Position numbers and translations under genes: made by a program
Assembly (NCBI RefSeq): GCF_002980495.1
Contig: NZ_PVBR01000006.1
Coordinates: 186,001 to 250,000 of the forward strand
DNA from: Phyllobacterium phragmitis
GTDB taxonomy: Bacteria > Pseudomonadota > Alphaproteobacteria > Rhizobiales > Rhizobiaceae
DNA: 64,000 bases
Direction: 5' to 3'
Shown here: positions 30,961 through 58,474 of the stretch, one piece after another
Layout: each line of letters starts with the position of its first letter
Position numbering within the stretch: the first letter of the stretch is position 1
The notes under the pieces: generated by a model
What the model saw: the letters and a program-made list of their open reading frames with translations, nothing else
What the model was told of the DNA's origin: nothing
The model's database searches: none

Positions 30961-31082
30961 TTATTAGATGTTTGTCGCCGTTTTGTAACAGTGCCGTCCG
31001 ATGATCGCACGGACTTGGCGCTCAATGTGGAGTGCCGGGCCGACGGAAACCTCGACACGCCGAGTTGCGAGCAGGAGCCAAC

Positions 31083-35630: not shown

Positions 35631-35632
35631 CC

Positions 35633-41919: not shown

Positions 41920-43091
41920 GCGCGATCACATTCGATCACATCCGCAAGTCCTACGGTGCCACCCAGGTGTTGCGCGATGTGTCGCTTTCGATCGAGAGCG
42001 GCGAATTTCTCACCCTGCTCGGCCCTTCGGGCTGCGGAAAATCGACGCTCCTGAGAATCCTGGCCGGTCTGGAACGGCAAGACGGCGGCTCGGTGCGCAT
42101 CGGCGACCGCCAGGTCGACGATCTTCGTCCCAAGCGTCGAGACGTTGCGATGGTGTTCCAGTCCTACGCCCTCTATCCGCACATGACGGTCGCCGGGAAT
42201 ATGGCGGTCCCCTTGCGTATGCGCCGGCTGAACTCATGGCAGCGTCTGCCGCTTATCGGCAAGCTGTTGCCGGGCACACGCCCCACCCTGGCAGAAATCG
42301 ACTCCGAGGTTTCAAGGACCGCGGCGGCCCTCGGTATCGATCACCTGTTGGCGCGCAAGCCCGGGCAGCTCTCGGGCGGGCAGCGCCAGCGTGTCGCCGT
42401 CGGTCGCGCGATGGTGCGCGAGCCAGCCGTGTTCCTGATGGACGAGCCGCTTTCCAATCTCGACGCCAAGCTGCGTGTTCAGATGCGGGCCGAAATCAAG
42501 GAACTCCATAAGCGGCTTGGCGTCACGTTCATTTACGTGACCCACGATCAGGCCGAGGCCATGACGCTGTCGGATCGAGTGGCCGTCATGCTCGATGGCG
42601 AACTGCTCCAGGTAGCCCCGCCGCGCGACATTTATGCCGATCCTCATGATCGGCGCGTCGCGGAGTTCATTGGATCTCCGAAGATCAACACGCTGGACGG
42701 CGCGGTGATCGAGCGCGGCCTGATGGCGACGTCCGGAGCGAAGCTTTCCGTGCCGGAGTCCATTGCTCCCGGCACGAAGCTCACGGTGGGCATCCGACCG
42801 GAGGCATTCAGCCTGATTACCCAGCCCGATGCTCCTAACGTGATCGAAGGGTTGGTTCATCTGATCGAGCATATGGGGTCGGATCTCTTTGTTCACCTTC
42901 TCGTCGAAGGCATGAATGAACCATTGATCGTCCGGCTGCACGCCGAACGGGCTCCTCATATTGGCTCCGGTCACAGACTGGTCGTCGGCGTGAAGCCAAC
43001 CCAGATGATGCTGTTCGATGAGGCGGGCCATCGTTTGCAGAAGACTGCTATCAGCGAGAGCCGAGTCACGCCAATTCGGGAAACTGCGTGA
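41916..43091 (+). CDS. UgpC/MalK-type ABC ATPase
   Basis: ATPase of 391 residues of the CUT1 sugar/glycerophosphate class. Walker A GPSGCGKS near residue 37, Q-loop MVFQSYALYPHMTV, signature LSGGQRQR, Walker B VFLMDEPLSNLDAK and the C-terminal TOBE/regulatory domain (LTVGIRPEAFSLI) are present. A short insertion after the Q-loop (RRLNSWQRLPLIGKLLPG) is longer than usual. The start overlaps the phosphodiesterase stop as ATGA. It powers the two permeases that follow. Confidence 0.92.
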   Translation: MSAITFDHIRKSYGATQVLRDVSLSIESGEFLTLLGPSGCGKSTLLRILAGLERQDGGSVRIGDRQVDDLRPKRRDVAMVFQSYALYPHMTVAGNMAVPLRMRRLNSWQRLPLIGKLLPGTRPTLAEIDSEVSRTAAALGIDHLLARKPGQLSGGQRQRVAVGRAMVREPAVFLMDEPLSNLDAKLRVQMRAEIKELHKRLGVTFIYVTHDQAEAMTLSDRVAVMLDGELLQVAPPRDIYADPHDRRVAEFIGSPKINTLDGAVIERGLMATSGAKLSVPESIAPGTKLTVGIRPEAFSLITQPDAPNVIEGLVHLIEHMGSDLFVHLLVEGMNEPLIVRLHAERAPHIGSGHRLVVGVKPTQMMLFDEAGHRLQKTAISESRVTPIRETA

Positions 43092-44050
43092 TGGGAGACG
43101 TCATGTCGCTTCCCGACCGGAAACATGAGGCGCGCCAACGCGGCGCCTCCCCGGCTTCGGCGAACAGTCGGTCGACCAAGCTCGCAGATATGCTCGCGGC
43201 CTGGACGCTTGCCGGACCGGCGCTCGCGCTGCTGATCGTGCTGTTTTTCTTGCCGGTTCTTGCTGTGTTTGTGATTGCGCTGACCGACTGGCAGTTTGGG
43301 GCCAGCACGCTTTCCTTCGTCGGCCTGGAAAATTTCGAAGAGGTCTTCGCGGATCCGGGTTTTCGGGCCTCGCTCTTCAACACGGTGGCCTATGTCGCCA
43401 TTGTTGTGCCAGGCACGATCATTCTCGGCCTCGCGGTCGCGCTGCTGATCGAGAGCGGCAAGTCCTTCCGGGCCTTCTACCGCGCTATCCATTTCCTGCC
43501 CTACATGGCGACGCTAACGGCCATGGCGATCGCCTGGGAGGCCCTGCTCCACCCGACCATCGGCCTGGTCAATCAGACGCTTACTGGCCTCGGTCTGCCC
43601 ACGGCTAACTGGCTACGTGACGAAAGCACTGTGCTGCCCGTCCTCGCCGCCATCGGCATCTGGCAGAACCTTGGCTTCGCGATGGTGCTGTTTTTGGCGG
43701 GGCTGAAGTCGATACCGCAGGACCTCTACCATGCCGCTGAAGTCGACGGCGCCGATCTTTGGCTCGACCGCCTGCGGACCGTCACGCTGCCGATGCTCGG
43801 CCCGGTCTTCATGTTCGTCTTCATCGTCGTGGCACTGAAAGCGTTCGAGACTTTCGATACCGTGCAGGTGCTGACCCAAGGCGGGCCAGGGCACGCGTCC
43901 GAGATGCTGCTGTTCACTCTCTATCGCGAGAGCTTCCAATATTTGCGCACCGGCTACGGCGCTTCGGTTGCGGTCGTCTTCCTCATCATCGTCGTCGCGC
44001 TGACGCTGATCCAAGCGCGCGTTATGGACAGGAGGGTTCACTATCAATGA
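43091..44050 (+). CDS. UgpA-type ABC permease
   Basis: CUT1 permease of 319 residues with about six helices and the EAA loop YHAAEVDGADLWLDRLRTVTLPMLGP. An N-terminal cytoplasmic stretch of about 35 residues precedes the first helix (AGPALALLIVLFFLPVLAVFV). The ATG at 43091 shares a base with the ATPase stop; 43103 behind GGGAG is an alternative. Confidence 0.92.
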   Translation: MGDVMSLPDRKHEARQRGASPASANSRSTKLADMLAAWTLAGPALALLIVLFFLPVLAVFVIALTDWQFGASTLSFVGLENFEEVFADPGFRASLFNTVAYVAIVVPGTIILGLAVALLIESGKSFRAFYRAIHFLPYMATLTAMAIAWEALLHPTIGLVNQTLTGLGLPTANWLRDESTVLPVLAAIGIWQNLGFAMVLFLAGLKSIPQDLYHAAEVDGADLWLDRLRTVTLPMLGPVFMFVFIVVALKAFETFDTVQVLTQGGPGHASEMLLFTLYRESFQYLRTGYGASVAVVFLIIVVALTLIQARVMDRRVHYQ

Positions 44051-44911: not shown

Positions 44912-46132
44912 ATGAAAATCAATCGCCGCACGTTCATTGCCGGTTCTTCTATGCTGTTTGCCAGCTCACTCACTTCTCAAGCGCGGGGGGCTAATCAACC
45001 ACTGAGTATGATGATCGACTCGCGGAGTTTATATGAAAACATAGTGCAACAAGGTCTAGACACACTTGGGACAGTGGACAGCGGTGCAAGTATAGAAACG
45101 ATTTGGACTGAAAACTATACGGATACACTTCAAAAATCATTACGGAACAAAATAGTCGGAGTGTCGCCGACTGTTGCCCTTCATGCGCATAACAACATTG
45201 CAATGCTCGCTGCAAGGGGTGACATCTTCCCGCTTGATCCCTTTATGCCAAGCGCCGAATCTGGCAGCTCGTCGCCGATCGGCTCATTCAATGGAAAACA
45301 ATATGGTGTCCCGTTCTCTCTCTCGGTACCGGTTGTTTACGTCAACTGTGATTTGCTTGGACGGCCAGATAGTCTCCCATCGACCTGGGATGAGATAATT
45401 TCGAATGCAGATGCAATAGATGCACCGAGCGGTGGTGCCTATTTTAACTATTCGACTGATGGAAGCTGGACGTTCATGGCATTAATCGAAAGTTTGGGAG
45501 GTCGGATCCTCAACGAGGATGGGACAGATATTGCCTTTGACACGCAAGAAGGCCTGGAGGCAATGGAGATCCTAGGCTCGTTTGCAAGAGTTAGGAAGGG
45601 CGCCGCGCTTTCTCCGTCGCATGCGCGCCAAGCGTTCGCAGCCGGCGCGATTGGCATTCACATAGATACCACCAGCCGCCTCCGGTACTTCGAACAACAT
45701 GCCGAGGGCAACTTCAAGATGGCAGTAGTGCCGTTTCCAATCAGGAATGTCCCGGCGGCGAGAATTCCACCTTCCGGTGGGTCCTTAACGATCATGGCAT
45801 CTGAGTCGCAACTGCAAGAGCATGCGTGGGCTATGATTGCCGCGCTAATGCAGCCGAACGTGCAATCGTTGATCCTAAAGGAGACTGGATTCATTCCGGG
45901 TGCAGCAGTATCGGGAGCGAATTCAGACCTTCTTCCCGAACTCGAAGCAACACCGCATTTCGATGCAATCGAGCCACTACTCGCAGTCCTCGGTCCATGG
46001 GTGAGCTTCCCTGTGAGTAATCCAGCTCGTGCAGATAAAGTTGTACGGGATCAATTGGATTTCCAAGCCAGCCTCCAAGCCACGCCACAGGACACGCTCG
46101 AAAGAATTGTACGTGAGATTCGACAGATGTGA
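44912..46132 (+). CDS. UgpB-type periplasmic solute-binding protein, family 1
   Basis: Binding protein of 406 residues. Tat-like signal KINRRTFIAGSSMLFASS, cleavage probably near SQARG. Family 1 landmarks are YGVPFSLSVPVVYVN and the late domain GGSLTIMASESQLQEHAWAMIAALM, with the C-terminal ATPQDTLERIVREIRQM. It serves the Ugp-like importer and is the last gene of that operon. It is more A+T-rich than the genes before 44.6 kb. Ligand likely a phosphodiester or other small polar conjugate processed by the enzyme at 40405; inferred from the operon. Confidence 0.9.
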   Translation: MKINRRTFIAGSSMLFASSLTSQARGANQPLSMMIDSRSLYENIVQQGLDTLGTVDSGASIETIWTENYTDTLQKSLRNKIVGVSPTVALHAHNNIAMLAARGDIFPLDPFMPSAESGSSSPIGSFNGKQYGVPFSLSVPVVYVNCDLLGRPDSLPSTWDEIISNADAIDAPSGGAYFNYSTDGSWTFMALIESLGGRILNEDGTDIAFDTQEGLEAMEILGSFARVRKGAALSPSHARQAFAAGAIGIHIDTTSRLRYFEQHAEGNFKMAVVPFPIRNVPAARIPPSGGSLTIMASESQLQEHAWAMIAALMQPNVQSLILKETGFIPGAAVSGANSDLLPELEATPHFDAIEPLLAVLGPWVSFPVSNPARADKVVRDQLDFQASLQATPQDTLERIVREIRQM

Positions 46133-46241
46133 TCTACCGTACGGAGAGTACACACCAATACCCAAACTTTAAAGATCAACCGCTTGCCTGCCTGCGCTGC
46201 TGACGTTTAACGGCGCGGAGGCAGACGGCAGTCCAAAAGTG

Positions 46242-47378
46242 ATGAGCAACATAGTGAAAGCAGGAATTGATTTAAGGCGCGTCACCTCACCCGTCATTCC
46301 GCATATCGACCAGGAAATAGCGAAGGCGTTGCATAGGCTCCAACGCTCCTGGTCGCCGTCAGACGAACTGCGGCAGCACCGCAAACTGGGGACAGTAAAC
46401 GACAGGCGCTTTGCATCCCACTTTCTTTCGCGCCGATATGTGGAACCCGTTGATGAAGAGCGTGTATTTCTCGTCAGCGGAACGCAAAACGCTCTGTTCC
46501 TACTTCTGTCCGCGATGCGCCCCGAACGTTCAACGATTATTGTCGAAGAACTCGCCTACCGCCAAATTCGAGAAGTCGCAGCTATCCTCGGTATGCGGCT
46601 AGTCGGAGTCGAGACTGACGCCGACGGGATTGTCCCTCGATCGTTGGAAGACAGGACTAGGGAACACCCCAAAAGCATCCTCTACTGTACACCCACAGTC
46701 CACAACCCAACCGCAACCATCATGCCCGAAGGTAGGCGTACAGCTATCATTCAGATAGCTCGCAGCGGCGGAGTTCCAATCATTGAGGACGAAGCGCAAG
46801 GACTAATTCCGCTTGCTGCGCCTCCGCCCTTAAGTGAAATGGCTCCCGATATAACGTGGACAGTGACCGGGCTATCAAAATGCCTCTTTGTTGGTCTTCG
46901 CATAGCATATGTTGTTGCGCCTAGTGCGGACGCTATTCGCAATACGCTAAAGGACCACTCCGATATGGCCTTCTGGTACTCGTCAGCAGTAGCTGCTTCA
47001 CTGACGAATGAAATCATCGCGTCCGGTGCTGCTGAACTGATGCTAGAGCGTGTTCGCGAGGAAGCGGTCCGACGACAAGAACTTGCGGACAGATTGCTTC
47101 TCGGTTCTGAACTCGTACGAGGCAATGGCCTGCATTTGTGGATCGATAATCCCGAGCGAACAGGCAATGATTTGAGAGAAGAAGCTGCGCAGTATGGCGT
47201 TCTTGTGAGGAGTGCCTCCGAGTATGCCGTTAATCAAAATCAACAACAGCGTGGCATCCGTGCATCGCTCGCTGATGTCTGCATGGAAGACCTTTCTCTC
47301 GCATTTGAGCGATTGAATTCATCGACGGTCTTGCTCGGCTCCATAAATGAACGAAAGCCACGATCCGAGGAGAATTAG
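46242..47378 (+). CDS. PLP-dependent aminotransferase-fold protein, MocR-type without DNA-binding domain
   Basis: Fold-type I PLP protein of 378 residues. It has SGTQNALFLLLSAM near residue 80, YCTPTVHNPTATIMPEGRR, the PLP aspartate in IIEDEAQG and the Schiff-base lysine in TGLSKCLFVGLRIAYV. The sequence resembles the C-terminal half of MocR/PdxR regulators, but there is no N-terminal winged helix, so it should be an enzyme. It is a paralogue of 48192-49286. It lies on the opposite strand to the phosphonate operon and its end overlaps the exporter gene by 60 bases, tail to tail. The GTG at 46239 is an alternative start. Substrate unknown. Confidence 0.8.
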   Translation: MSNIVKAGIDLRRVTSPVIPHIDQEIAKALHRLQRSWSPSDELRQHRKLGTVNDRRFASHFLSRRYVEPVDEERVFLVSGTQNALFLLLSAMRPERSTIIVEELAYRQIREVAAILGMRLVGVETDADGIVPRSLEDRTREHPKSILYCTPTVHNPTATIMPEGRRTAIIQIARSGGVPIIEDEAQGLIPLAAPPPLSEMAPDITWTVTGLSKCLFVGLRIAYVVAPSADAIRNTLKDHSDMAFWYSSAVAASLTNEIIASGAAELMLERVREEAVRRQELADRLLLGSELVRGNGLHLWIDNPERTGNDLREEAAQYGVLVRSASEYAVNQNQQQRGIRASLADVCMEDLSLAFERLNSSTVLLGSINERKPRSEEN

Positions 47379-48179
47379 AACCGTCCCGATAATGGCTGGC
47401 ACGTCGGGGCGCTCACCTATCAATAGAATCCCAATGGCCAAGCTCGCAGGAAGACGCACAAAGTCAAAAGTAGCACCGCGAGCTAGTCTCGTGAGAGAAT
47501 ACCCCGTCGAGAGGAATAGCTGCGCCAACGCTGCCAATGCACCAATGCAAACCAAAACAACAAGAACGCGAGGAGATGGCCACGTCCACTCTAGTACAGC
47601 TAAAGGAAGCCCGAGGACGGAACTCCAGACAAAGAACCCTGCTGCGACATTCACTGGACTATCTGCATGAGCTAGCATCCGAACTGACATCGTGGCGAGT
47701 GCTCCAAGAGCAGCCCCCACAAGGCCAAGTATAATCCAGATGTTGGAGTCTCCGATCGTAGGTTGTACTATCAAAACCACTCCTGCTATGCCGATCAATA
47801 CAACACTTAGTAAAGTGCTAGTCACCTGCTCGCGCAAGAGGGCACCACCCAAAACCAACGCCCAAACCGGCGTTGTGTAGAAAAGCGCGACGGTTACGGA
47901 CAGGGGCAGGTTTGTTAAGCAGACCGCATAACATAGAAAGCTTGTGTATCCGAAGAACGAGCGAAGAAAATGTGCTTTAGAGGTGAGAATAGTGCGAATA
48001 CGTTTCGATCCAGGCCAGAGAAAGTGCACAAAAAATGGCAGGCTTAGTAAGCTCCGCAGGAATACAATCTGAAAAATCGGCATATCGGAGGAGACGGCTT
48101 TTATCATAGCCGCCATTGTCACGAATGCGACGCCTGATGCGATCAGCAGGAGGATGCCGGGAAGTTCACGATCCGCCAT
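47319..48179 (-). CDS. EamA/DMT-family exporter
   Basis: Ten-helix drug/metabolite transporter of 286 residues made of two EamA repeats. The first repeat includes FQIVFLRSLLSLPFFVHFLW and SVTVALFYTTPVWALVLGGALLREQ; the second ends with LPASLAIGILLIGERPDVPAIIGTVLILLG. It is the last gene of the minus-strand phosphonate operon, 12 bases after the PLP enzyme. It would export an amino acid or the phosphonate product or intermediate. Confidence 0.88.
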   Translation of the reverse strand: MADRELPGILLLIASGVAFVTMAAMIKAVSSDMPIFQIVFLRSLLSLPFFVHFLWPGSKRIRTILTSKAHFLRSFFGYTSFLCYAVCLTNLPLSVTVALFYTTPVWALVLGGALLREQVTSTLLSVVLIGIAGVVLIVQPTIGDSNIWIILGLVGAALGALATMSVRMLAHADSPVNVAAGFFVWSSVLGLPLAVLEWTWPSPRVLVVLVCIGALAALAQLFLSTGYSLTRLARGATFDFVRLPASLAIGILLIGERPDVPAIIGTVLILLGSWLSFIYGAEQDRR

Positions 48180-48191
48180 GCTGCTGGGCCA

Positions 48192-49286
48192 TCAATCGAG
48201 TAGAGCGGCAACTATGGCAAGCCCTTGACGGAGATCTCTCTCCTCGCGGGTTTCGCAGAAAGAAATCCTTAAGCCATTCATAGTGGAGCTCTCGCCTGGT
48301 TTGGCTGCAAACTCCTTCCCAGGGCGGACAAGGACGCCTTCTGACCGCGCTTGCTGTGCGATATCGACCGCATCTCGACTAGTCGGTACCCAAACATGCA
48401 ACCCACGCGGGAATGCAAGAAGACCTGGGCGGTCCAATATCTCTGCTACAATTCTTCGCCGCTCGGTTGCTATATCCCGTATTGCTGCAGTAGCTCGTCC
48501 GGCTACGCCACTTGAAATCAACGCGTGCGCGAGTTCCGCTTGCAATGCCGCAACAAACCACATGGACATCTTTCCGAACCGCGACATGAGTGCCTCGGTA
48601 CCGGACACATCCGGGGTCGCCAAGTAGGCGACTCGCAGCCCCATCACGACAGTCTTCGCAAGCCCCATAACATACCACGTCCGCTCAGGAGCGAAGGTGG
48701 CGAGGGGGAGTGGCGCGTCCTCGATCATCAATGCCTGAGCGTCGTCTTCGATGATCTTTACGTCGTATTTTCTTGCGATGCCTACGACCTGTTCCCGACG
48801 GCCAATAGGCATCACAGTAGCAGTAGGGTTCTGCATTGTAGGAATGGTGTAGAGTACCTTTGGTGTGTTGATGCGTTGGCAAACCTCCTCGAGAGCCACG
48901 GGGTCGAGTCCTTGCTCGTCCATCGGTATGCCCACAATTGGGAAGCCCAACATTCCTGACAACGCTTGCATGTTCGGATATGTCATTTCTTCTGTCAGCA
49001 GTGTTCCGTCTTTCCCCACGAGTTGGTTAAGCAGTAGAAAAAGAATGTTAAGTGTCCCGTTTGTTACCAGAATCCTGTCTGGTGAAGGTTCACTTCCGAG
49101 ACGCTGCGATAACCATTTTGATCCCGTAACGCGATCCTCTTCTGTTCCTCGAGGACGGTTTGTTCGTAAAAGACCGTTAGCACCCGGCAATACGAGCCGG
49201 GAAGCAATACGATCGGCAAGGGATGTCTCGAGTTCGTGTATTACTGGTGGAACAGCCCGTGAGAGATCAATAATCCTGTCGTTCAT
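48192..49286 (-). CDS. PLP-dependent aminotransferase-fold enzyme in the phosphonate operon
   Basis: Fold-type I PLP enzyme of 364 residues, paralogous to 46242-47378. TNGTLNILFLLLNQL, TIPTMQNPTATVMPIGRR, the aspartate in IIEDDAQALM and the lysine in MGLAKTVVMGLRVAYL are the key segments. There is no winged helix, unlike MocR regulators. The ATG follows GGAGG. It lies 53 bases after the CDP-alcohol phosphotransferase gene and 12 before the exporter. A second PLP enzyme beside the class I aminotransferase is unusual. It could be an aminotransferase or a decarboxylase acting on phosphonoalanine or its conjugate, which might replace the missing phosphonopyruvate decarboxylase. That role is only a hypothesis. 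Confidence 0.82.
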   Translation of the reverse strand: MNDRIIDLSRAVPPVIHELETSLADRIASRLVLPGANGLLRTNRPRGTEEDRVTGSKWLSQRLGSEPSPDRILVTNGTLNILFLLLNQLVGKDGTLLTEEMTYPNMQALSGMLGFPIVGIPMDEQGLDPVALEEVCQRINTPKVLYTIPTMQNPTATVMPIGRREQVVGIARKYDVKIIEDDAQALMIEDAPLPLATFAPERTWYVMGLAKTVVMGLRVAYLATPDVSGTEALMSRFGKMSMWFVAALQAELAHALISSGVAGRATAAIRDIATERRRIVAEILDRPGLLAFPRGLHVWVPTSRDAVDIAQQARSEGVLVRPGKEFAAKPGESSTMNGLRISFCETREERDLRQGLAIVAALLD

Positions 49287-49339
49287 CTTATAACCTCCGA
49301 TATTAACCGATGGGGCATGAGGATAGTATGGCAGGCCGT

Positions 49340-49948
49340 TTAAAAAGCTCCGCGTTGCAGGAGGAGGGTGGATGCGACGACAGCAAATGATGTGATCGCT
49401 ACGTACATCACGCGATTAGGCGACGGCACACGAATTCGAGCGATATGGGCGACGGCAAGCGCCGCGAACACGAAGTTCATCATCGGCAGAAACGTCTCCT
49501 GCGGTACGATGGGCTGAATGAGGACGAGGGCGGCCAGCAGCGGGATATCGTAGGAGAGTGGCACGCCGAAAAACCGTCCATCCTCCGACTTTCCGAAGTT
49601 CGCGAAATAGCTCAATCGAACGGCGCCGGCGAGCAGCAGCGCCGATGCTATAAACAGCGACAGCAGCGAGACACTGTTCAGCTGCAGGATTAGAACCGCC
49701 GGCAGGATCGCCCCATAGATCAGGTCGCCGAAGCCATCGAGGCTCTTTCCCATCTTCGCCATGTCCGGGTGCCGGTTCGCTGTCCGACCGGCCACGACGC
49801 CGTCGAGGTGGTCGGCGAGGACCGCCCACAGTGCGACGGCGACTGCCAGTTCAATCTGACCATCGAGAGCCAGGTACAGGCTCAGCGATGAGCAAATCAG
49901 CCCGGCCGTCGTGATGGCATTTGCCGGATCGACCAAATAACGAAGCAT
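49340..49948 (-). CDS. CDP-alcohol phosphotransferase, phosphatidylserine-synthase-like
   Basis: Integral membrane enzyme of 202 residues with about six helices. Catalytic motif at residues 46-75: DHLDG, then VVAGR, then GKSLDGFGD, matching DxxDGxxA...GxxxDxxxD except that the arginine after Ala is displaced by a glycine. These enzymes move a phospho-alcohol from a CMP or CDP donor to an alcohol. The placing of the final motif and downstream helix resembles PssA. The ATG at 49948 has GGAGG 6 bases upstream. It follows the nucleotidyltransferase by 23 bases, so its donor is probably the CMP-phosphonate made there and its product a phosphonolipid. The acceptor is unknown. Confidence 0.85.
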   Translation of the reverse strand: MLRYLVDPANAITTAGLICSSLSLYLALDGQIELAVAVALWAVLADHLDGVVAGRTANRHPDMAKMGKSLDGFGDLIYGAILPAVLILQLNSVSLLSLFIASALLLAGAVRLSYFANFGKSEDGRFFGVPLSYDIPLLAALVLIQPIVPQETFLPMMNFVFAALAVAHIARIRVPSPNRVMYVAITSFAVVASTLLLQRGAF

Positions 49949-49971
49949 GCTCGTCCTCCCTGGCAAATCCG

Positions 49972-50751
49972 CTAGCAGGCCAACTCACGGGCGGTGATGA
50001 ACATCGCTTCGGCGATGCGAAGGTCCGCCTCGCTGTCGATCTCGTACCACCGCACGTCATCGCAACGGGCTGCCGCGATCTGGAGGCCCTTGCGCTCGAC
50101 CAGATGCGAAAGAAGCTCTTCAGTATAGGATGTCACGGCGCCGCAACTGATGAGATCGTCCAGATACGGAACGATCATCTTGCGCAGATCATCGCCGGAA
50201 AAGCGGATGAGATTCATCGTCTTGAAGAGCTGAGGGAGCCCTTCCACGAGGTTCTCCGCTGTTTGCTTCATCCGCACCTCGACGATGTTGCCGGTGTCGC
50301 TCAGAATTACCGCTGAACCTTCCATCGATCGGTCGAATGGCGCCACGGCCGCGACGTTGCCCGTCTCATAGAGGGACAGTTTGCGCAGTGCGTCGATTTC
50401 GAAGAAGACATCGCCTTCGAGCAGGTAGGTGTCGCCCGATAGAAGCGCGTGGCGGGCCAGCCACAGCGAATAGGCACTGCCCGTCTTGTCGAAGACGTTC
50501 GACTCCACATAGCTGATCGCAATATTGCCGAACCGGCTGCCACAGGAATACTGGATGGCGTCCTTCCGGTAGCCAACGACGATCGTGACGTCGTCGACAC
50601 CGAGCGCTTCGAGATTACGCAACGCGTTGTGCAGGATCGGTGTCCCATTCACTTCAACAAGCGGCTTGGGCCGCAGATCGGTGAGCGGCCGAAGCCGGGA
50701 CCCGAAGCCAGCGGCCAATATCACGGCCTTGGTCGGAAAATGCATCGTCAT
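49972..50751 (-). CDS. Nucleotidyltransferase, PntC/LicC-like phosphonate cytidylyltransferase candidate
   Basis: Nucleotidyltransferase of 259 residues. The signature AVILAAGFGSRLRPLTDLRPKPLVEV covers residues 9-34, and the metal aspartate is in LLEGDVFF. The central NVFDKTGSAYSLWLARHAL matches the LicC/PntC group that activates phosphocholine or 2-aminoethylphosphonate with CTP. The start at 50751 overlaps the aminotransferase stop as ATGA, and AGGGA lies upstream; the frame to 50985 is read-through. Next to PEP mutase it should make a CMP-phosphonate, here probably CMP-phosphonoalanine or CMP-aminoethylphosphonate. Function by context; the family is secure. Confidence 0.85.
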   Translation of the reverse strand: MTMHFPTKAVILAAGFGSRLRPLTDLRPKPLVEVNGTPILHNALRNLEALGVDDVTIVVGYRKDAIQYSCGSRFGNIAISYVESNVFDKTGSAYSLWLARHALLSGDTYLLEGDVFFEIDALRKLSLYETGNVAAVAPFDRSMEGSAVILSDTGNIVEVRMKQTAENLVEGLPQLFKTMNLIRFSGDDLRKMIVPYLDDLISCGAVTSYTEELLSHLVERKGLQIAAARCDDVRWYEIDSEADLRIAEAMFITARELAC

Positions 50752-51989
50752 AACAATTCCCTTTCTTTTATTTCGGCTTCGGGCGGAGCCCCATAGCTCC
50801 AGGCGTTGAGAAACTCGACCAGGCGGTCGAGGCCTTCCGGCAATCGATCCGGCGGAATGCCGTAGGAAAGGCGCATGCCGTAGGGATCCCCGAAGGCAGT
50901 TCCGGAAACCGTCGCCACGCCCGCCTTGGCGATCAGCTCGCGAACCAGCAGATCGACGTCGCGATCGCCGATCACGAGGTTCCACGGCTCAGGCGCGACC
51001 AGGTTCTTGACGTCGAGATAGAAATAGAAGCCACCCATCGCTGTCGGCACCGGGATGCGAGACAGCCCTGAAAGCACCCTGATACCGATCTCACGGGCGG
51101 AGGAGAGTTGCTTCTGCAGCCCCGCTTCGAATGACCCGTCTGTGTTCTGCAAATGGTGCAACGCCGCGTGCTGTGCGATCACGTTTGGATTCGACGTGGT
51201 ATGGGATTGCAGGGCCTTCACGGCGCTAACGAGATAGTCCGGTCCGGCGAGATAACCGATCCGCCATCCGGTCAGAGCGAGTGCCTTGCTGAAGGCATTG
51301 ACGATCACCGTGCGAGAGCGCACCTCTGGAATGACCGAAACGATCGGATGGTGGCCAACATCCGTATGGATGAAATCCCGATAACACTCATCGAAGATGA
51401 TCCAGAGGTCGCGCTCAATCGCGAGCTCGCCAAGCGCGCGCAAGAGCGCCGCATCATAGACCGTACCGGTCGGATTGTTCGGCGTGTTGACGACGATCGC
51501 CCGTGTCCGCGCGGTGACGGCGGCCGAAATATCTTCGATGCGAGGCACGAAACCGTTGGCCCGTGTATCGACATGAACGGGCACACCGCCCGCGATCTGC
51601 ACCTGTGCCGGAAAGGTCGTCCAGTAGGGCGCGGGAATAATGACCTCGTCGCCCGGATTGAGCAGCACCATGGCGGCATTAAACAAAGCTTGCTTGGCGC
51701 CGGTCGTCACCGCAATCTCGCTTGCTCCCCAGTTCTGGCCGGTTTCAGCGGTCAGCTTGCGGGCAAGCGCCTCACGCAATTCCATCACCCCGATCGTGTC
51801 GGTGTAGCGGTTGATGCCCTTGTCGATTGCGGCAATCGCGCCATCACGGATTGTCGGCGCCAGGCCGGTCCATATTTCGCCAGCTGTCAGATCGACCACT
51901 TGAATACCGGCGTCAGAGGCCTCTTTTGCGGCGGCGCGCGCTGCCGCCGTTCCCGACCCTTTGAGCATGGCTGTCCGTTGCGCAAGCAT
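50748..51989 (-). CDS. Class I aminotransferase, probable phosphonopyruvate aminotransferase
   Basis: Aspartate-aminotransferase-like PLP enzyme of 413 residues. Segments: NRYTDTIGVMELREAL, TPNNPTGTVYD, the aspartate in IFDECYRDF, the lysine in VNAFSKALALTGWRIGYLAGPD and an arginine in MRLSYGIPP. It is only moderately similar to the catabolic one at 28631-29869, so it is not a recent copy. The ATG follows GGAGG. It lies 56 bases after pepM. In the absence of a phosphonopyruvate decarboxylase, it probably converts phosphonopyruvate to phosphonoalanine, pulling the unfavourable mutase reaction forward. Confidence 0.82.
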   Translation of the reverse strand: MLAQRTAMLKGSGTAAARAAAKEASDAGIQVVDLTAGEIWTGLAPTIRDGAIAAIDKGINRYTDTIGVMELREALARKLTAETGQNWGASEIAVTTGAKQALFNAAMVLLNPGDEVIIPAPYWTTFPAQVQIAGGVPVHVDTRANGFVPRIEDISAAVTARTRAIVVNTPNNPTGTVYDAALLRALGELAIERDLWIIFDECYRDFIHTDVGHHPIVSVIPEVRSRTVIVNAFSKALALTGWRIGYLAGPDYLVSAVKALQSHTTSNPNVIAQHAALHHLQNTDGSFEAGLQKQLSSAREIGIRVLSGLSRIPVPTAMGGFYFYLDVKNLVAPEPWNLVIGDRDVDLLVRELIAKAGVATVSGTAFGDPYGMRLSYGIPPDRLPEGLDRLVEFLNAWSYGAPPEAEIKERELL

Positions 51990-52045
51990 GTGCGCCTCCT
52001 GCTAGTTTATCGTTGTGTCGAAATGAGCTGGCCTGTTCGGCCAGT

Positions 52046-53044
52046 TCAGCCGTGTTTGGGCAGATATCGCTCTTCTGCGGCCGCCAGCTCGTCATATCCG
52101 AGAAGGCGGAAAACCTCGTCGAGCGTTGCAACATCCGGTTCGATGCCTGCGATGCTTTCCTCGGCGATAATCCGGCCGCAAATCTGACGCATGCCGGCGA
52201 CGGCCGCGCGCATGGCATGGTTCGCCCAGATAACCGTCGAGATGCCGGCGTCGCGATAAGCTGCAACCGGCGTCTTGTAATATTTCGTCGGGACGATCAC
52301 GACTGGCAGCTTGTTCTGCCATTGGTCCGCAAAGGCCAGGATCTCGTCGGGGACGCTTTTGCGGGAATGGATCAGGATCGCATCCGCGCCGGCTGCCGCA
52401 TAGGCTTCGGCGCGCATGAGCGCTTCCTCGAGGCCGTAGCCCGCTATCAGCGCCTCGATCCGGGCAACCAGTATGAGATCGTCTCCGGTCGTATCCTTCA
52501 CGGCCTTGAGGCGCCCCGAAAATTCATCAATGTCAGCGAGGGGATGGCGATCGCCGACGAACGAATTCATCTTTGGGAAGCCTTTGTCTTCCAGGCAGAC
52601 GCCGGCCGCTCCCCGTTGCAGGAGCTTAGCAGCCAGCAAACGGGCATTGTTGAAATTGCCGAAGCCGCTGTCGCCGTCGACCAGGATCGGCAGCCCACTG
52701 GCATCGGCCATGCGGCCGACCACCTCGACGACATCGGTCCAACTCGCCTCGTTGGCGTCCCGATAGCCAAGGCTCGCCGAAATCGAGAGCCCTGAAGCCC
52801 AGAGCCCTGCAAATCCCGCCTGTCGTGCAATGGCGGCCGACAGGCCATCATGCGCTTCCATCAGGAATGACAGGTCTGGTGATGTAATCAGCCGACGCAA
52901 CGCATCGGTCGGATCGTCCACGCGGCCGATGCTCTTCGGAATGAACGCAGCGATCCCCGATGCCGCTCGCGCATGTCGTTCCTCATCGGCATGCGCGAGC
53001 TTTGTTCCCTGTGACGGAATCTCTCCTGTTGAAGAATTCAGCAT
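52046..53044 (-). CDS. pepM: Phosphoenolpyruvate mutase
   Basis: PEP mutase of 332 residues that rearranges PEP into phosphonopyruvate, the first step of nearly all phosphonate biosynthesis. Residues 152-161 read EDKGFPKMNS, the defining EDKxxPKxNS loop. The metal-site segment LVDGDSGFGN is at 121-130. The first ~55 residues extend beyond the hydrolase paralogue at 27784. The ATG at 53044 has AAGGAGG 7 bases upstream. It heads an operon of six genes: pepM, aminotransferase, nucleotidyltransferase, CDP-alcohol phosphotransferase, PLP enzyme, exporter. No thiamine-dependent decarboxylase is present in the window. Paired palindromes at 53105-53223 lie in its promoter region. Confidence 0.93.
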   Translation of the reverse strand: MLNSSTGEIPSQGTKLAHADEERHARAASGIAAFIPKSIGRVDDPTDALRRLITSPDLSFLMEAHDGLSAAIARQAGFAGLWASGLSISASLGYRDANEASWTDVVEVVGRMADASGLPILVDGDSGFGNFNNARLLAAKLLQRGAAGVCLEDKGFPKMNSFVGDRHPLADIDEFSGRLKAVKDTTGDDLILVARIEALIAGYGLEEALMRAEAYAAAGADAILIHSRKSVPDEILAFADQWQNKLPVVIVPTKYYKTPVAAYRDAGISTVIWANHAMRAAVAGMRQICGRIIAEESIAGIEPDVATLDEVFRLLGYDELAAAEERYLPKHG

Positions 53045-53104
53045 TGTCACACCTCCTTCATAGAGAAATGTTCTAATAAAAAGTTGAGGTAATCAAGTGG
53101 TATC

Positions 53105-53128
53105 GGAATATATCGGAAAATGTATTCC
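53105..53128. promoter_or_regulatory. 24-bp operator-like palindrome upstream of pepM
   Basis: GGAATATAT at 53105-53113, then CGGAAAA, then TGTATTCC ending at 53128. The outer arms GGAATA and TATTCC are exact inverted repeats, and the total length equals that of the site at 53200-53223. It is about 60 bases before the pepM start, a position for repression. Confidence 0.55.
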
Positions 53129-53184
53129 GTGAAGTGTGAGCGTAAGTGTGATGTGGCTGCAAACGTTCAGTAAAGAGTATGCAT

Positions 53185-53214
53185 CTATAAATATAAGTAG
53201 GAATATATTTATAG
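53185..53214. promoter_or_regulatory. 10-bp inverted repeat overlapping the second operator
   Basis: CTATAAATAT at 53185-53194 and ATATTTATAG at 53205-53214 are exact inverted repeats with a 10-base spacer. It overlaps the palindrome at 53200-53223, so the two folds or bindings would exclude each other. Confidence 0.5.
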
Positions 53215-53223
53215 ATATATTCC
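53200..53223. promoter_or_regulatory. 24-bp operator-like palindrome upstream of the GntR gene
   Basis: GGAATATAT at 53200-53208 and ATATATTCC at 53215-53223 are exact inverted repeats with the 6-base spacer TTATAG. The centre-to-centre distance to the copy at 53105-53128 is 95 bases, nine helical turns. The GntR regulator is the obvious candidate binder. Confidence 0.6.
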
Positions 53224-53304
53224 AGAATGGCATTCTCCGCGTGTTAAGCACTGTTCTCGCGATGGCGCAGGCGGGCGCAGCGCAAGATGCGAGGAGGCTT
53301 TTGT

Positions 53305-54018
53305 ATGCTTGAGGAAGGACCTGATGCACGCGATAGTGACACCGGACACAACAGTAAAGCCGGTCAGCTATATGGGCAGCTGAAGTCGTTGTTCGTTCTT
53401 CAGAAGCTTCCTCCAGGCACACGTTTGGAAATGGCGAGCGTCGCAAAGCGGTTCGGGGTCAGCATCACGCCGGTTCGGGAAGCGCTGATCCTGCTGGCCA
53501 ACGAGAGAATTATCGCAAAGGACTCCAACAGAAGCTACGTGACGCGTCCGTTGGTGGCCCAGGAGGTCCGGGACGACTATGAAGCTGCGTTCATGACAGC
53601 CTGCTACTGCATAGAGAACCGCACAGCGCACTTCGAGGCGACTGGCCTGCGGGTTGGCAGTGCGCAGGCGACCTCACAATGGGGCGTGTCCGATCGGTTG
53701 CGCTCAATATGCCAGACCATCGAATTGCTCTATGAGCGCATCGCCGGGCTCATCGGCAATGAGCGGTTGGAGCGGCAAATGCTGGAGTTCAACGATCGTA
53801 CGCACTACGTAAGGCAGCTCGACATGCGTAACGAGAAACGGCACCAGGAAACAGCGGTAGCAATGAATGAGCTAGTCACGTTGCTTGAGGCAGGAGACGC
53901 ACAATCAGCTATCGCCAATCTCAAACAGCAGTTCCGTAGGAAGCATGAATTGATCCCAACACTCGTAAGAGAAGGGAATCTCGCTGCTCTGGAGAGCGTT
54001 AATTTGTTTGCCGAATAA
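53305..54018 (+). CDS. GntR-family (FadR/FCD-type) regulator
   Basis: Regulator of 237 residues. The winged helix occupies residues about 25-80: LPPGTRLEMASVAKRFGVSITPVREALILLANERII. The C-terminal all-helical part is FCD-like. I start at the ATG at 53305, with GAGGAGG 7 bases before. It is divergent from pepM and probably controls the phosphonate operon through the paired 24-bp palindromes in the gap. GntR regulators commonly sense a carboxylic acid or amino-acid-like pathway metabolite. Confidence 0.88.
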   Translation: MLEEGPDARDSDTGHNSKAGQLYGQLKSLFVLQKLPPGTRLEMASVAKRFGVSITPVREALILLANERIIAKDSNRSYVTRPLVAQEVRDDYEAAFMTACYCIENRTAHFEATGLRVGSAQATSQWGVSDRLRSICQTIELLYERIAGLIGNERLERQMLEFNDRTHYVRQLDMRNEKRHQETAVAMNELVTLLEAGDAQSAIANLKQQFRRKHELIPTLVREGNLAALESVNLFAE

Positions 54019-54066
54019 CCGTGAATTCAGCCCCCAAAAAAGACAATACAAGGATCTTCTATCTCG

Positions 54067-54564
54067 ATGAACAGAGAATCTGACCCGATGTCCAGACCAG
54101 TGGCCAACTCTCTTCGAGACGAGTTCGGAATGGCGCGGGCAATCCTCGAATACAGTCTCCGCGAGAATATTGCCGGTTTCACGTTATCCGGGCTAAAGAT
54201 ACCACGCATCCTCCAGACTTGGCGGCCGGGCTCAGAATTGCCCCCTGCGGACGAGTTTGCACTCGAGGTCGCCATCTACCAGGAGCACCTTGGGGATAGA
54301 ATCGCAGCACTTTCCTGCAATCGGAAAATGCTGCAGGAGATTTGGCGTTTCAATGAAGCCACGCGAGAGTTCCGCGAACTTGAGTTGACGATACCTGAAG
54401 CTGCTCGGGAAGTTCTGGACCAACTGGCGAACCTCGTGAACGCCCTTTTTGATCAGGATAGGTCGGCCGCAATCAGATCCCTCGCACATTGCCAGAACCG
54501 ACGGTATGATCTTGTCGAGGAAATCGCCCACAAATTGTCACCCCCCGAAGCCATGCACGCCTGA
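54067..54564 (+). CDS. FCD-domain-like protein lacking a DNA-binding domain
   Basis: All-helical protein of 165 residues, 48 bases after the GntR gene on the same strand. It resembles the ligand-binding C-terminal half of that neighbour, with the run HLGDRIAALSCNRKMLQEIWRFNEATREFRELELT comparable to RIAGLIGNERLERQMLEFNDRTHYVRQLDM in the regulator, but has no winged helix. It may dimerise with the regulator or sense a ligand on its own; it may also be a degenerate regulator that lost its head. The family call is by pattern only. Confidence 0.6.
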   Translation: MNRESDPMSRPVANSLRDEFGMARAILEYSLRENIAGFTLSGLKIPRILQTWRPGSELPPADEFALEVAIYQEHLGDRIAALSCNRKMLQEIWRFNEATREFRELELTIPEAAREVLDQLANLVNALFDQDRSAAIRSLAHCQNRRYDLVEEIAHKLSPPEAMHA

Positions 54565-54568
54565 CATA

Positions 54569-55333
54569 TTATAGTTCGGCTGTGGGGGCGAGGCTGTTTA
54601 CGTGAGCAAGAAACGGAAAAGCTCGACGCTCGTTCAGCGATATGGGTATTCTGTAGATGTTGTCGCCGACCGGAACGATGCCTTTTATCACGACAGAGCC
54701 TATCTCCCTTGTGTTCCGCACATGAAGACCGTCGCAGGTCAGCCTACCGAGACTGCCGATCTGCACGGTTCTATAGAATCCTGGCCGCCCGGGCCATGAA
54801 AAGGGCTGCGATCGCTCATCGAAATCGATTTCGTTGGCAGCGGCCCAGCTGCTCTCGACCGGAAGGTGCTTCTCCACCAATCGTTGCACTTGGTGCTGCA
54901 ACAGCGACGTGCTCATAGCCGTGCTGTCGACCAGGAAATCGATGCTGCCTTCGCCAAGCCCAACCCGTCCTCCGACAACTCTGAACGGAAACGCTGCCGA
55001 AACGGCATGAAGGGCTGTATGCGTCCGCATCAACGTGTGACGCCGCGCCCGATCGATTCTGACAACCACACTGTCCCCATGAGCCAGACCGTGCCCGTCA
55101 TCCGAAAGAACGTGGCCCAATTCGGGGGCAACGGACCCAATCCAAACCCCACGGACAATGGAAAATGAATTGCCGTCAAATCGGGTTAGCGACGCACAAT
55201 CGCGGGGCGTTACGCCAATCCCGGGATAGTAGACTGTTCGGTCAAGGACGACGAGATTGCCATTGATCGCTTTTATCGTCCCGCGAATCTCAACTTGATA
55301 GGCATCTGTGAGAAATCGCAACTCCGTGGCCAT
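54569..55333 (-). CDS. AlaX-like alanyl-tRNA editing-domain protein
   Basis: Protein of 254 residues similar to free-standing alanyl-tRNA editing proteins, which remove wrongly attached amino acids from tRNA-Ala. Zinc-site residues are visible in MRTHTALHAVSAAF (HxxxH) and CDGLHVRNTREIG (CxxxH). The size and the N-terminal barrel-like part before the editing domain fit AlaX-M. The ATG at 55333 follows GGGAGGGGG; the frame to 55399 is leader. It stands between phosphonate and cyclitol operons. A self-protection role against a product that can be mischarged is conceivable but not shown; it could equally hydrolyse another aminoacyl ester. It is convergent with the FCD-like gene, 4 bases apart. 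Confidence 0.82.
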   Translation of the reverse strand: MATELRFLTDAYQVEIRGTIKAINGNLVVLDRTVYYPGIGVTPRDCASLTRFDGNSFSIVRGVWIGSVAPELGHVLSDDGHGLAHGDSVVVRIDRARRHTLMRTHTALHAVSAAFPFRVVGGRVGLGEGSIDFLVDSTAMSTSLLQHQVQRLVEKHLPVESSWAAANEIDFDERSQPFSWPGRPGFYRTVQIGSLGRLTCDGLHVRNTREIGSVVIKGIVPVGDNIYRIPISLNERRAFPFLAHVNSLAPTAEL

Positions 55334-55935
55334 CCTGTCCCCCTCCCGGCACCCGACCACAATGCTCCACCGCGTCCACAGGACGCTTTCCGATAACAAG
55401 GAAACGATCCGGACTCGTATGACGGCATTCAGTCAGACCTACCACGCTAAGGCATCAATCCGCCTTCGAACAAGTCCGGTTCCCAGCACCTTTCTCACAT
55501 GATTGTGATAGGAATCGGCGCGGCCATGGCGCCTGACTCATTTCTGATCGCCGCACTGAGCCCCGTCGGGGCAGAGTAGCTTACGAGAGAGCTGTAGGAC
55601 AACCTGTGGTTTTTCACAGATTGACAAACTACTTGCGGCCGATCTCGCCATGGGCCGGTTTGCCGGTTAGTCCTCATTCCGACCCGTCAAGGAGCCTAAC
55701 ATGATCATAAACTCTGTCTCCGGCTCGCCGCCTTGCTTTCCGTCCCCTCCGCCCGGTGATGCGTATCGCAGGGTCTTTCATGTCTCGTAGGGAGGCATAC
55801 GCATAATTCAACGCTCCGGCGTCGTCCTGACACAAGATGCCGGCTCTTGTGTCGCCCAAATAAACATTTTGCATGTTACCCATGGGTGCCATCCCGCGGT
55901 TTGCGGATGGACAGGTTGCCGAACGCCAGTGTTGT
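55334..55935. other. 602-base region between the AlaX-like and dehydrogenase genes
   Basis: No intact gene is supported. It contains the short HipA-like fragment described separately at 55720-55874. Other frames on both strands have no recognisable domain. The region may hold the promoter of the AlaX-like gene and the end of the cyclitol transcript. Confidence 0.5.
55720..55874 (-). pseudogene. Possible remnant of a HipA-type toxin gene (N-terminal fragment)
   Basis: From the ATG at 55874 the frame reads MQNVYLGDTRAGILCQDDAG then ALNYAYASL, which resembles the N-terminal couple domain of HipA kinases (VYL..xRVGxLxQDDxGxLxFxY). After about 40 codons the resemblance is lost and no kinase domain follows. 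I treat it as a relic; chance resemblance is possible because the fragment is short. Confidence 0.4.
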
Positions 55936-57036
55936 CTATGGTTGCTGATTCAATGCTGTTGCACGTGGCTCTGTAGGGTTAGTTTTTATGACAACTTTTC
56001 CTGGATAATCTTTCGTGCCAGCCGCAACTTCCATAATAAAACGTGGAAACTCATTTAATTCGATCTCCGTCGATACCAATTTTTCGAGAGAGAAGCTGTC
56101 AGAATGCTTTGCGTGTAGCCGGAAACTTTCCTCATAGTCTTCCTTAAAACATCCGTAGGCACCAGTAATTCTTAATCTCTTTCCTTGGTGCTCCACCAAC
56201 TCAAGTTGTTCGTGCCTTCGAATCGTGTCGATATCCACTTGGGTTTTGGGAAATCGATCGCCCGCGCGCGTACCGCCGTAAATGTGTAGAATCCCCTCAC
56301 TGGTGGCTATGTTGGCAGCGTTCTGCAGAAGTTCAGACGTGACGATAGTCGGCACTACGATTACGACATCAAACGCATCTCGGTGACACTCTACGCCCAC
56401 GAGCGTGCATATCTCTTCCTCGGTCAGAAGCTTCTGGTCTCGCGCGAAATTGAGCCGCGATTCACCGCGGTTGAACACAATTACTGACGCGCCCAGATGC
56501 TTCGCGTACATAGCAAACATGATGCCTGAGCAGCCGGCGCCTATAATTCCCACCCTCTTTCCGTCAAGGGAGCGAAGCTTTGCTAGCTCAAGCAATTTCT
56601 TGGTTGCGTGGACAATGCAGGCGAACGGTTCGGGCATCCAGATGCTGTCAAGGATGCCAGCTTCCGGTACTCGCACCACCGCTTGGTCCAATTGTTCTGA
56701 GGAGCCGTGTACGAAAACATACTCGGCGAAACCGGTTGTGCGAACCGGTGTAATATTCGGATTGAAGGTTACGAGGTCGCCTTTTCTAAATCCACTTTGG
56801 ATACCCGCAAAAGCCACAGAGCCTACAAACTCATGTCCGAATAAGGGGCCACGATCCGTTGGAATGTCACGAGAACCAATGATTTCTTTGATGTCGGCGC
56901 GACAAATTCCTATGTAATCAGGCCGTATCACGACGGTATCCTCACCGAGCGTTTCTCGAGGGAAAGTCTTGCCTATGACCTTAACTGTGCCGCTGACTAA
57001 CTCCGCCGTTGTATATGTATATGGAAATTCTGTCAT
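55936..57036 (-). CDS. Zinc-type alcohol/polyol dehydrogenase (MDR superfamily)
   Basis: Medium-chain dehydrogenase of 366 residues. Visible are the catalytic-zinc Cys in YIGICRADIKEIIG, GHEFVGSV, MPEPFACIVHATKK and the nucleotide loop VGIIGAGCSGIMFAMYAK near residue 170. The structural-zinc cysteine cluster is missing. It is the last gene of the minus-strand cyclitol operon, 85 bases after the exporter. It could oxidise a cyclitol hydroxyl. It resembles threonine/polyol dehydrogenases more than the dehydrogenase at 60030. Confidence 0.82.
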   Translation of the reverse strand: MTEFPYTYTTAELVSGTVKVIGKTFPRETLGEDTVVIRPDYIGICRADIKEIIGSRDIPTDRGPLFGHEFVGSVAFAGIQSGFRKGDLVTFNPNITPVRTTGFAEYVFVHGSSEQLDQAVVRVPEAGILDSIWMPEPFACIVHATKKLLELAKLRSLDGKRVGIIGAGCSGIMFAMYAKHLGASVIVFNRGESRLNFARDQKLLTEEEICTLVGVECHRDAFDVVIVVPTIVTSELLQNAANIATSEGILHIYGGTRAGDRFPKTQVDIDTIRRHEQLELVEHQGKRLRITGAYGCFKEDYEESFRLHAKHSDSFSLEKLVSTEIELNEFPRFIMEVAAGTKDYPGKVVIKTNPTEPRATALNQQP

Positions 57037-57121
57037 TTGAACACCTAAGTGGCAAAGAATCAGTTTGTTCTGCTATGCTTCGATAGTCTGCCTGCAAACC
57101 GTTATTCGGAGCGGAAACGGC

Positions 57122-58342: not shown

Positions 58343-58474
58343 CGGCATTTCCTCAAGTTTAACGAAACTCACTTGTTTCAAATACGAAATACAACTCTGC
58401 TTAGATCGCCAATCGGCAATTCTCATCTTGGCTTTGCGGTTAAAATTATGCCCCAATATTCTGAGGGAGCGTGT

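Follow-up and report, generated by a model that had tools for sequence, protein, structure and literature searches.

What does a phosphonate operon make when the decarboxylase that usually accompanies phosphoenolpyruvate (PEP) mutase is missing? The question is raised by a six-gene operon in a 64,000-nucleotide stretch of Phyllobacterium phragmitis DNA (contig NZ_PVBR01000006.1, positions 186,001 to 250,000; hereafter, the window), in which the original prediction, made from the letters alone, had seen a pathway to a phosphonolipid. The answer proposed here is that rhizobia and agrobacteria share self-made, opine-like "phosphonopines", formed by cytidine triphosphate (CTP) activation and CDP-alcohol phosphotransferases (CDP-APs). 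Make-export-import-eat cassettes for these compounds would be carried on symbiosis plasmids or islands and on Ti plasmids and switched on by NifA in nodules; the tailoring enzyme and the importer's binding protein would be exchanged together, and phosphate versions of the scheme would exist. Taken whole, this reading is tentative and is put somewhat short of an even chance; its parts are graded separately below.

Synthesis operon and predicted route to a phosphonoalanine ester

Family scans of the window place all six genes on the minus strand at 47319-53044:

52046-53044, minus: pepM, PEP mutase (PEP to phosphonopyruvate); TIGR02320 344.1 bits, cut-off 319.55; motif EDKGFPKMNS
50748-51989, minus: aspartate-type aminotransferase, proposed to convert phosphonopyruvate to phosphonoalanine (a PnaA-like role); PF00155 186 bits
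49972-50751, minus: cytidylyltransferase (the nucleotidyltransferase), proposed to convert CTP and phosphonoalanine to cytidine monophosphate (CMP)-phosphonoalanine; PF00483 49 bits, PF12804 44.5 bits
49340-49948, minus: CDP-AP, proposed to transfer the phosphonoalanine group to an alcohol; PF01066 31.5 bits, cut-off 22
48192-49286, minus: aminotransferase-only MocR/EhuR homologue, proposed tailoring enzyme; EhuR 276 bits, cut-off 480
47319-48179, minus: EamA-type exporter; PF00892 84.9 bits

The pepM product scores above its cut-off, carries the EDKXXXXXNS signature of PEP mutases as EDKGFPKMNS, and matches the solved PEP mutase 1M1B (E 6e-105); an alternative GTG start lies at 53050. The aminotransferase matches NCBIfam aspartate-aminotransferase models only below cut-off, and its plasmid relatives are 66-91% identical and keep its position. 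The coupling originally seen at one junction, an ATGA overlap at 50748-50751, joins the aminotransferase to the nucleotidyltransferase and, with ribosome-binding-like sites, makes the operon look bacterial. The predicted genes, families and shared strand hold; the single six-gene unit does not. G+C is 59.1-60.8% in the first four genes (pepM to CDP-AP) and 51.4-53.6% in the MocR-like gene, the exporter gene, a second MocR-like gene (46239-47378) and a solute-binding protein gene (44912-46132), and the "operon" is therefore read as a core to which a second module was added by separate acquisition. The order core, MocR-like, EamA recurs in Bradyrhizobium WSM3983 (locus L085). The EhuR profile is matched by the MocR-like protein, the second pyridoxal-phosphate-type protein of the operon, only from position 93 on, so that the DNA-binding half is absent.

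No phosphonopyruvate decarboxylase (Ppd) over cut-off was found in the host genome (99.11% complete, 139 contigs), where the best match reached 41 bits against 312.5, and no route to 2-aminoethylphosphonate (AEP) was recognised there. This bears out the predicted absence of the decarboxylase and rules out an ordinary AEP/Ppd pathway in the window. Because Ppd is lacking, phosphonopyruvate is probably first transaminated to phosphonoalanine, as originally suggested. A precedent is the Streptomyces phosphonoalamide pathway (PnaD, PnaA), in which PEP mutase and an aspartate-aminotransferase-family enzyme likewise lead to phosphonoalanine; the available text of PMC11867202 describes biochemical demonstration of the PnaA transamination. 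Phosphonoalanine is very probably an intermediate here too. The two pathways then differ, since phosphonoalamides are peptides made by ATP-grasp ligases, whereas CTP activation and a CDP-AP follow in this operon; no ATP-grasp ligase was found among the ten open reading frames (ORFs) scanned at 46239-55399.

The predicted activation by CTP agrees with the structural model of the cytidylyltransferase (pLDDT 92), whose top Foldseek matches are PntC (6pd2, with CMP-AEP) and then LicC (1jyl); by sequence, LicC ranks first and PntC sixth. The PntC-type fold is accompanied by the GXG(T/S)R...PK motif, with G14, G16, R18 and K28 invariant in 62 of 62 sequences. CTP activation of phosphonoalanine is judged probable. 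It resembles the chemistry of PntC and related phosphonyl tailoring clusters, in which a LicC-fold enzyme activates a phosphonate with CTP (PMC6697681), and differs in that AEP is made there with Ppd and an AEP transaminase. A word search of PMC6697681 returned no phosphonoalanine, CDP-alcohol transferase or rhizobia.

For the CDP-AP (model pLDDT 95), the four best structure matches are all chains of phosphatidylserine synthase (PSS; 7pow/7b1k), which is likewise closest by sequence. This fits the PssA-like transfer that had been proposed, with a score against the PssA model TIGR00473 of 55.7 bits, below the cut-off of 107. All 72 relatives keep the four metal-binding aspartates of the CDP-AP signature (D46, D49, D71 and D75) and also Arg101 and Phe105 (also given as R111 and F115). 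In a comparison with the PSS residues described in the accessible part of PMC8633023, the serine-site positions Ala59 and Ser63 are changed to Lys and Gly, respectively, each in 55 of the 72 relatives, and both are replaced in the window. Judged by these residues, the catalytic centre is conserved and the pocket for the acceptor differs from that of PSS. In PSS, the lipid is the CDP-activated group and serine attacks; in the operon, the phosphonate would be the activated group. Both models also match the IPCT-DIPPS structure 4mnd, where a cytidylyltransferase is again paired with a CDP-AP to join two small molecules, although those enzymes are fused, act on phosphates and make a compatible solute.

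In the proposed synthesis, PEP mutase would make phosphonopyruvate, the aspartate-type aminotransferase would pull it to phosphonoalanine, the cytidylyltransferase would convert this to CMP-phosphonoalanine, and the PssA-like CDP-AP would move the phosphonate group onto a small alcohol. Variable enzymes would tailor the ester and EamA would export it.

Putative catabolic genes on the same plasmid

Outside the original prediction lay the plasmid and symbiosis context of the operon and a catabolic half in the same window, up to 20 kb off. This set sits 1-20 kb from the synthesis operon on the same repABC plasmid; the contig (289,021 bases) bears repA, repB, repC, traA and trbE and is therefore taken to be a conjugative-type plasmid.

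27784-28656, minus: putative phosphonopyruvate hydrolase (PphA), start chosen by eye, proposed to convert phosphonopyruvate to pyruvate and phosphate; TIGR02321 358.6 bits, cut-off 374.4
28631-29869, minus: aminotransferase, proposed to convert phosphonoalanine to phosphonopyruvate; PRK06107 aspartate transaminase 529 bits, cut-off 617
31032-36502, plus: Opp-type importer (binding protein, two ATPases, two permeases); binding protein matches Opp/Nik models
40405-41919, plus: NPP-type phosphodiesterase, start chosen by eye, proposed phosphonate-ester hydrolase; PF01663 100 bits
41916-44883, plus: Ugp-like importer (ATPase 41916-43091, permease 43088-44050, permease ending at 44883); UgpC subfamily 402 bits, cut-off 432
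44912-46132, plus: solute-binding protein of the Ugp-like importer; PF13416 69 bits; 51.4% G+C

The hydrolase scores 282.6 bits against the PEP mutase model, 76 bits lower than against its own, and has EDKTFPKVTS rather than EDK.....NS; the aminotransferase gene at 28631-29869 overlaps it. The phosphodiesterase reaches only 24 bits against a phosphonoacetate hydrolase model, and its N-terminus, MKFLIASFDG, appears by eye to be without a signal peptide. With the LysR regulators also present among these genes, the set resembles the known PphA route of phosphonoalanine degradation (PphA, aminotransferase, LysR and importer); it differs in that an NPP phosphodiesterase goes with it and that the replicon also carries a synthesis operon. 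The two halves mirror each other: formation of an ester by the CDP-AP is matched by NPP cleavage, and PEP mutase with an aminotransferase by hydrolase with an aminotransferase. The catabolic genes are proposed to be a route for import and degradation of a phosphonoalanine ester. Plasmid-bearing kin would take up the ester through an ABC importer with a binding protein matched to its tailored form, the NPP phosphodiesterase would split it, and the phosphonoalanine released would be transaminated and the resulting phosphonopyruvate cut to pyruvate and phosphate. Between the two halves of the window lies a reverse-transcriptase-like ORF, by eye of group II intron type (21473-22711, plus).

Distribution, symbiosis context and variation of the cassette

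An alignment of the nucleotidyltransferase was scanned against 84,980 species genomes, and the best 80 of 107 relatives were kept. All 80 loci are titled Rhizobiales, one being an A. vitis pTi, and around them lie PepM (at least 250 bits) in 73, CDP-AP (at least 50 bits) in 69 and the aminotransferase (at least 250 bits) in 54, a co-occurrence that exceeds chance. Ppd scores over cut-off in six of the 50 relatives' genomes, four times on another contig, judged by length, and twice (L061, L109) outside the 20-kb locus. Among 201 relatives, five of eight CDP-AP matches were dropped, as another type of cytidylyltransferase stands alongside and PepM does not; at L021-L025, CDP-AP genes 27-29% identical adjoin a cytidylyltransferase that is by eye of CTP_transf_like type, without PepM. 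Erwinia matches were decayed pieces and were not used.

In public plasmids, the nucleotidyltransferase is found in 51 records, 49 of them at the threshold of at least 50% identity, and the hydrolase at its threshold of at least 60% identity in 34 of 53. Both occur together on 14 of the 49 plasmids (4.8-32.5 kb apart, on records of 281-1717 kb), so that, counting the window's own contig, synthesis and catabolism genes share one replicon there and on 14 plasmids, as they do in rhizopine systems. The phosphodiesterase (at least 50% identity) is in at least 27 records; among those listed, 25 of 27 carry the hydrolase, and the two without a hydrolase of at least 60% identity hold a 40% fragment. 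No hydrolase was found on 12 Agrobacterium and two R. rhizogenes cassette records. Across 394 Rhizobiaceae species, the nucleotidyltransferase occurs in eight, the hydrolase (at least 350 bits) in 12 and both in five; the hydrolase is thus present in 5/8 cassette species versus 7/386 others (Fisher p 5.5e-7), and in two of the five species with both it lies 12.8 kb from the cassette. In S. mexicanum, where PphA is absent, a C-P (carbon-phosphorus) lyase, an alkaline-phosphatase-family gene and an Opp importer adjoin the cassette. The catabolic set alone, without synthesis genes, occurs on plasmids of Bradyrhizobium nodule isolates.

The cassette also keeps company with nodulation genes. nodA is present in 38 of 50 cassette genomes (those of 50 among the 80 loci), and among the 394 Rhizobiaceae, in which nodA occurs in 20, the cassette in eight and both in four, it is found in 4/8 cassette species versus 16/386 others (p 3e-4). 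The cassette of Mesorhizobium sp. 131-3-5 has rpoN/nifQ on one side and nifHDK on the other, and gene counting from exsA and nifQ reproduces M. loti R7A msi339, msi336, msi327 (pepM) and msi326 (aatA). By this gene order, R7A pepM, aatA and asnB are placed in the same cassette. As given in the available text of PMC3538637, their expression is nodule-specific and NifA2-dependent: below 20 units each in broth, 827 (pepM), 2456 (aatA) and 862 (asnB) units in nodules, and 8, 16 and 22 units in a nifA2 mutant. Mutants in the three genes formed a fully effective, Fix+ symbiosis, and phosphonates are not mentioned in that text. In nodulating relatives, the set would be expressed in bacteroids under NifA and be dispensable for fixation, as for rhizopines.

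Upstream of pepM at five Mesorhizobium loci, a sigma-54-like site and two upstream NifA sites lie at equal spacing; because these loci are homologous, they count as one event. Over the 80 loci, a strict sigma-54 consensus occurs in none and a relaxed one in five (shuffle mean 0.12, maximum 1), and NifA sites occur in 19, a count that includes related loci, versus a shuffle mean of 6.6 and maximum of 13. Nod-box-like regulation was discarded, with 18 loci versus 16.6 in shuffles and hence no excess; FixK and Pho-box patterns numbered zero.

The genes after the core vary between loci (DgaE-like, SDR, methyltransferase, AsnB-like or HisC-like). On three Ti plasmids and an A. vitis plasmid (L112-L115), the phosphonate operon is accompanied by SbnA-like (240 bits, cut-off 350), SbnB-like (102 bits, cut-off 327) and SerK-like genes and an adjoining Opp importer, and no hydrolase was found on those records. 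On Rhizobium beringeri pRlX3 (L134), a nucleotidyltransferase, a GHMP kinase, a CDP-AP, an AsnB-like gene, an ABC importer and an NPP phosphatase-family gene form a set with the same logic in phosphate, the GHMP kinase replacing PEP mutase. On S. meliloti symbiotic plasmids, similar CDP-AP and NPP matches lie 9 kb apart. One run on Allorhizobium ampelinum pAtS4e (L135) holds PEP/pyruvate-binding and PEP-utilizing genes, a cytidylyltransferase, a LysE exporter and a CDP-AP, which is yet another way of feeding a CDP-AP. Amino-acid-type exporters accompany such CDP-AP genes, EamA in the window and LysE in Allorhizobium.

Variation of the importer was compared over 14 loci with a Ugp-type importer (13 distinct, L019 being the same as L035), with identities taken against the window. 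For the ATPase, identity ranges over 62-95% (median 69); for the binding protein, it is 26-30% in all but one locus. In that locus, L108, the binding protein reaches 56%, and it is the only one of the set with a MocR-like enzyme at 66% (others 33-40%), while in the core genes it is the locus farthest from the window (PepM 65%, nucleotidyltransferase 57%). At S. meliloti L027 and L128, by comparison, ATPase, phosphodiesterase and hydrolase are 90-95% identical, and binding protein and MocR-like enzyme 28-30% and 33-35%. The MocR-like enzyme and the binding protein seem to change together, as if the importer recognised the tailored product. This enzyme may act as a decarboxylase, the alternative originally suggested for it; its variation in step with the binding protein is what a tailoring enzyme would show.

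Three further features flank the operon:

46239-47378, plus: second aminotransferase-only MocR/EhuR homologue, adjoining the importer; EhuR profile 224 bits
53200-53223, no strand: palindrome GGAATATATCTATAAATATATTCC between the GntR gene and pepM, read from sequence
53287-54018, plus: GntR/FCD regulator, divergent from pepM; PF00392, PF07729; phnR_burk 38 bits, cut-off 271.5

The palindrome is a possible operator; AT-rich palindromes resembling it also lie upstream of pepM in L026, L027 and L031. An AlaX-like alanyl-tRNA editing homologue adjoins the regulators (54569-55399, minus; AlaXM 104.6 bits, cut-off 300), with another AlaX match within L044. Farther upstream, a second cluster (55936-63405, minus) comprises a DHQ-synthase-like cyclase, a ROK kinase, two alcohol dehydrogenases, an SDR, a further ORF and an MFS transporter, and resembles a cyclitol pathway.

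Weighing the explanations

Several observations weigh against the reading of a soluble, exported ester that is taken up again as a private nutrient. The hydrolase lies below its curated cut-off and is absent from the record in 35 of the 49 cassette plasmids, including all Ti plasmids, and related plasmid records are not independent samples. At 250 bits, 26 of the 80 loci are without such an aminotransferase, and the L044 cassette contains a Ppd-like gene (294 bits). Neither nodA in the window's own genome nor a NifA-type promoter before its pepM was found, and the authors of PMC3538637, in the text available, likewise did not find a NifA/RpoN promoter before pepM. By gene count, asnB would be msi322, one off from the msi323 given there. 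Finally, the co-variation of tailoring enzyme and binding protein is thin evidence, with L108 as its single informative locus.

The lipid product originally proposed, in which CMP-phosphonoalanine would be transferred to diacylglycerol to give a C-P analogue of phosphatidylserine, draws on the closeness of the CDP-AP to PSS in sequence and fold and on its kept catalytic residues. It is nevertheless improbable: PSS holds diacylglycerol on CDP with serine as acceptor, whereas here the acceptor's role would fall to the lipid, and the two serine-site positions differ. Tailoring genes (methyltransferase, AsnB-like) vary between loci, and the linked binding-protein importers, a phosphodiesterase without visible signal peptide and the hydrolase fit a soluble compound. 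A soluble ester is fairly likely to be the product. Decoration of the cell surface, with CMP-phosphonoalanine modifying a glycan, would suit the PntC/LicC fold of the cytidylyltransferase and is the role proposed for PntC/AEP clusters (PMC6697681); it is very improbable, as a scan of ten ORFs around the operon showed neither LicD nor a glycosyltransferase and as exporter and importer are paired. An antimetabolite or signal acting on competitors or the plant, with hydrolytic genes for self-protection or turnover, is unlikely, if less so. Phosphonoalanine peptides are antibacterial according to the available text of PMC11867202, an exporter is present, bioactive metabolites typically show such variable tailoring, and the SbnA/SbnB-like genes of the Ti-plasmid form would supply diaminopropionate. 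Dedicated importers and breakdown as far as pyruvate and phosphate, however, exceed the needs of self-protection; catabolism-only plasmids occur in nodule isolates, no target or resistance gene was recognised, and the R7A mutants described in the accessible part of PMC3538637 were fully effective in symbiosis.

As the source of such an ester, the cassette would have a role like that of rhizopines, which, as summarised in the available text of PMC10591227, are made in bacteroids and catabolised by strains with a matching operon. We infer, at a little better than an even chance, a plasmid-encoded private nutrient, the phosphonate counterpart of rhizopines. The likeness to mos/moc lies in the linked synthesis and catabolism genes and may extend, through the M. 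loti R7A relatives placed in the cassette by gene order, to nodule-specific, NifA-dependent expression of genes that are dispensable for fixation. Rhizopines differ in being inositol derivatives, and no inositol-modifying gene lies in the operon, where C-P chemistry and unrelated enzymes are found instead; the window's host, moreover, is not a nodulator by nodA. The parts themselves are known: PepM, transamination of the PnaA type, activation of the PntC type and degradation by PphA. The literature searched yielded no case in which a CDP-AP and an NPP enzyme link them on symbiosis or Ti plasmids, and the search, with subscription papers outside its scope, returned no paper linking a phosphonate with a rhizopine, Ti plasmid or symbiosis island in this way.

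If the phosphonopine reading is true, a family of CDP-APs that esterify a phosphonate would be defined, and a function would be supplied for a symbiosis-island gene set that was found in 2013 to be strongly induced in nodules but was assigned none. The available text of PMC11867202 calls the natural role of phosphonoalanine unclear; the compound would receive a place in the nitrogen-fixing symbiosis. The concept of rhizopines, until now limited to inositol compounds from some strains, would take in a family that is widespread and varied in its chemistry, and single-gene mutants would allow a question of kin selection, private versus public goods, to be tested.

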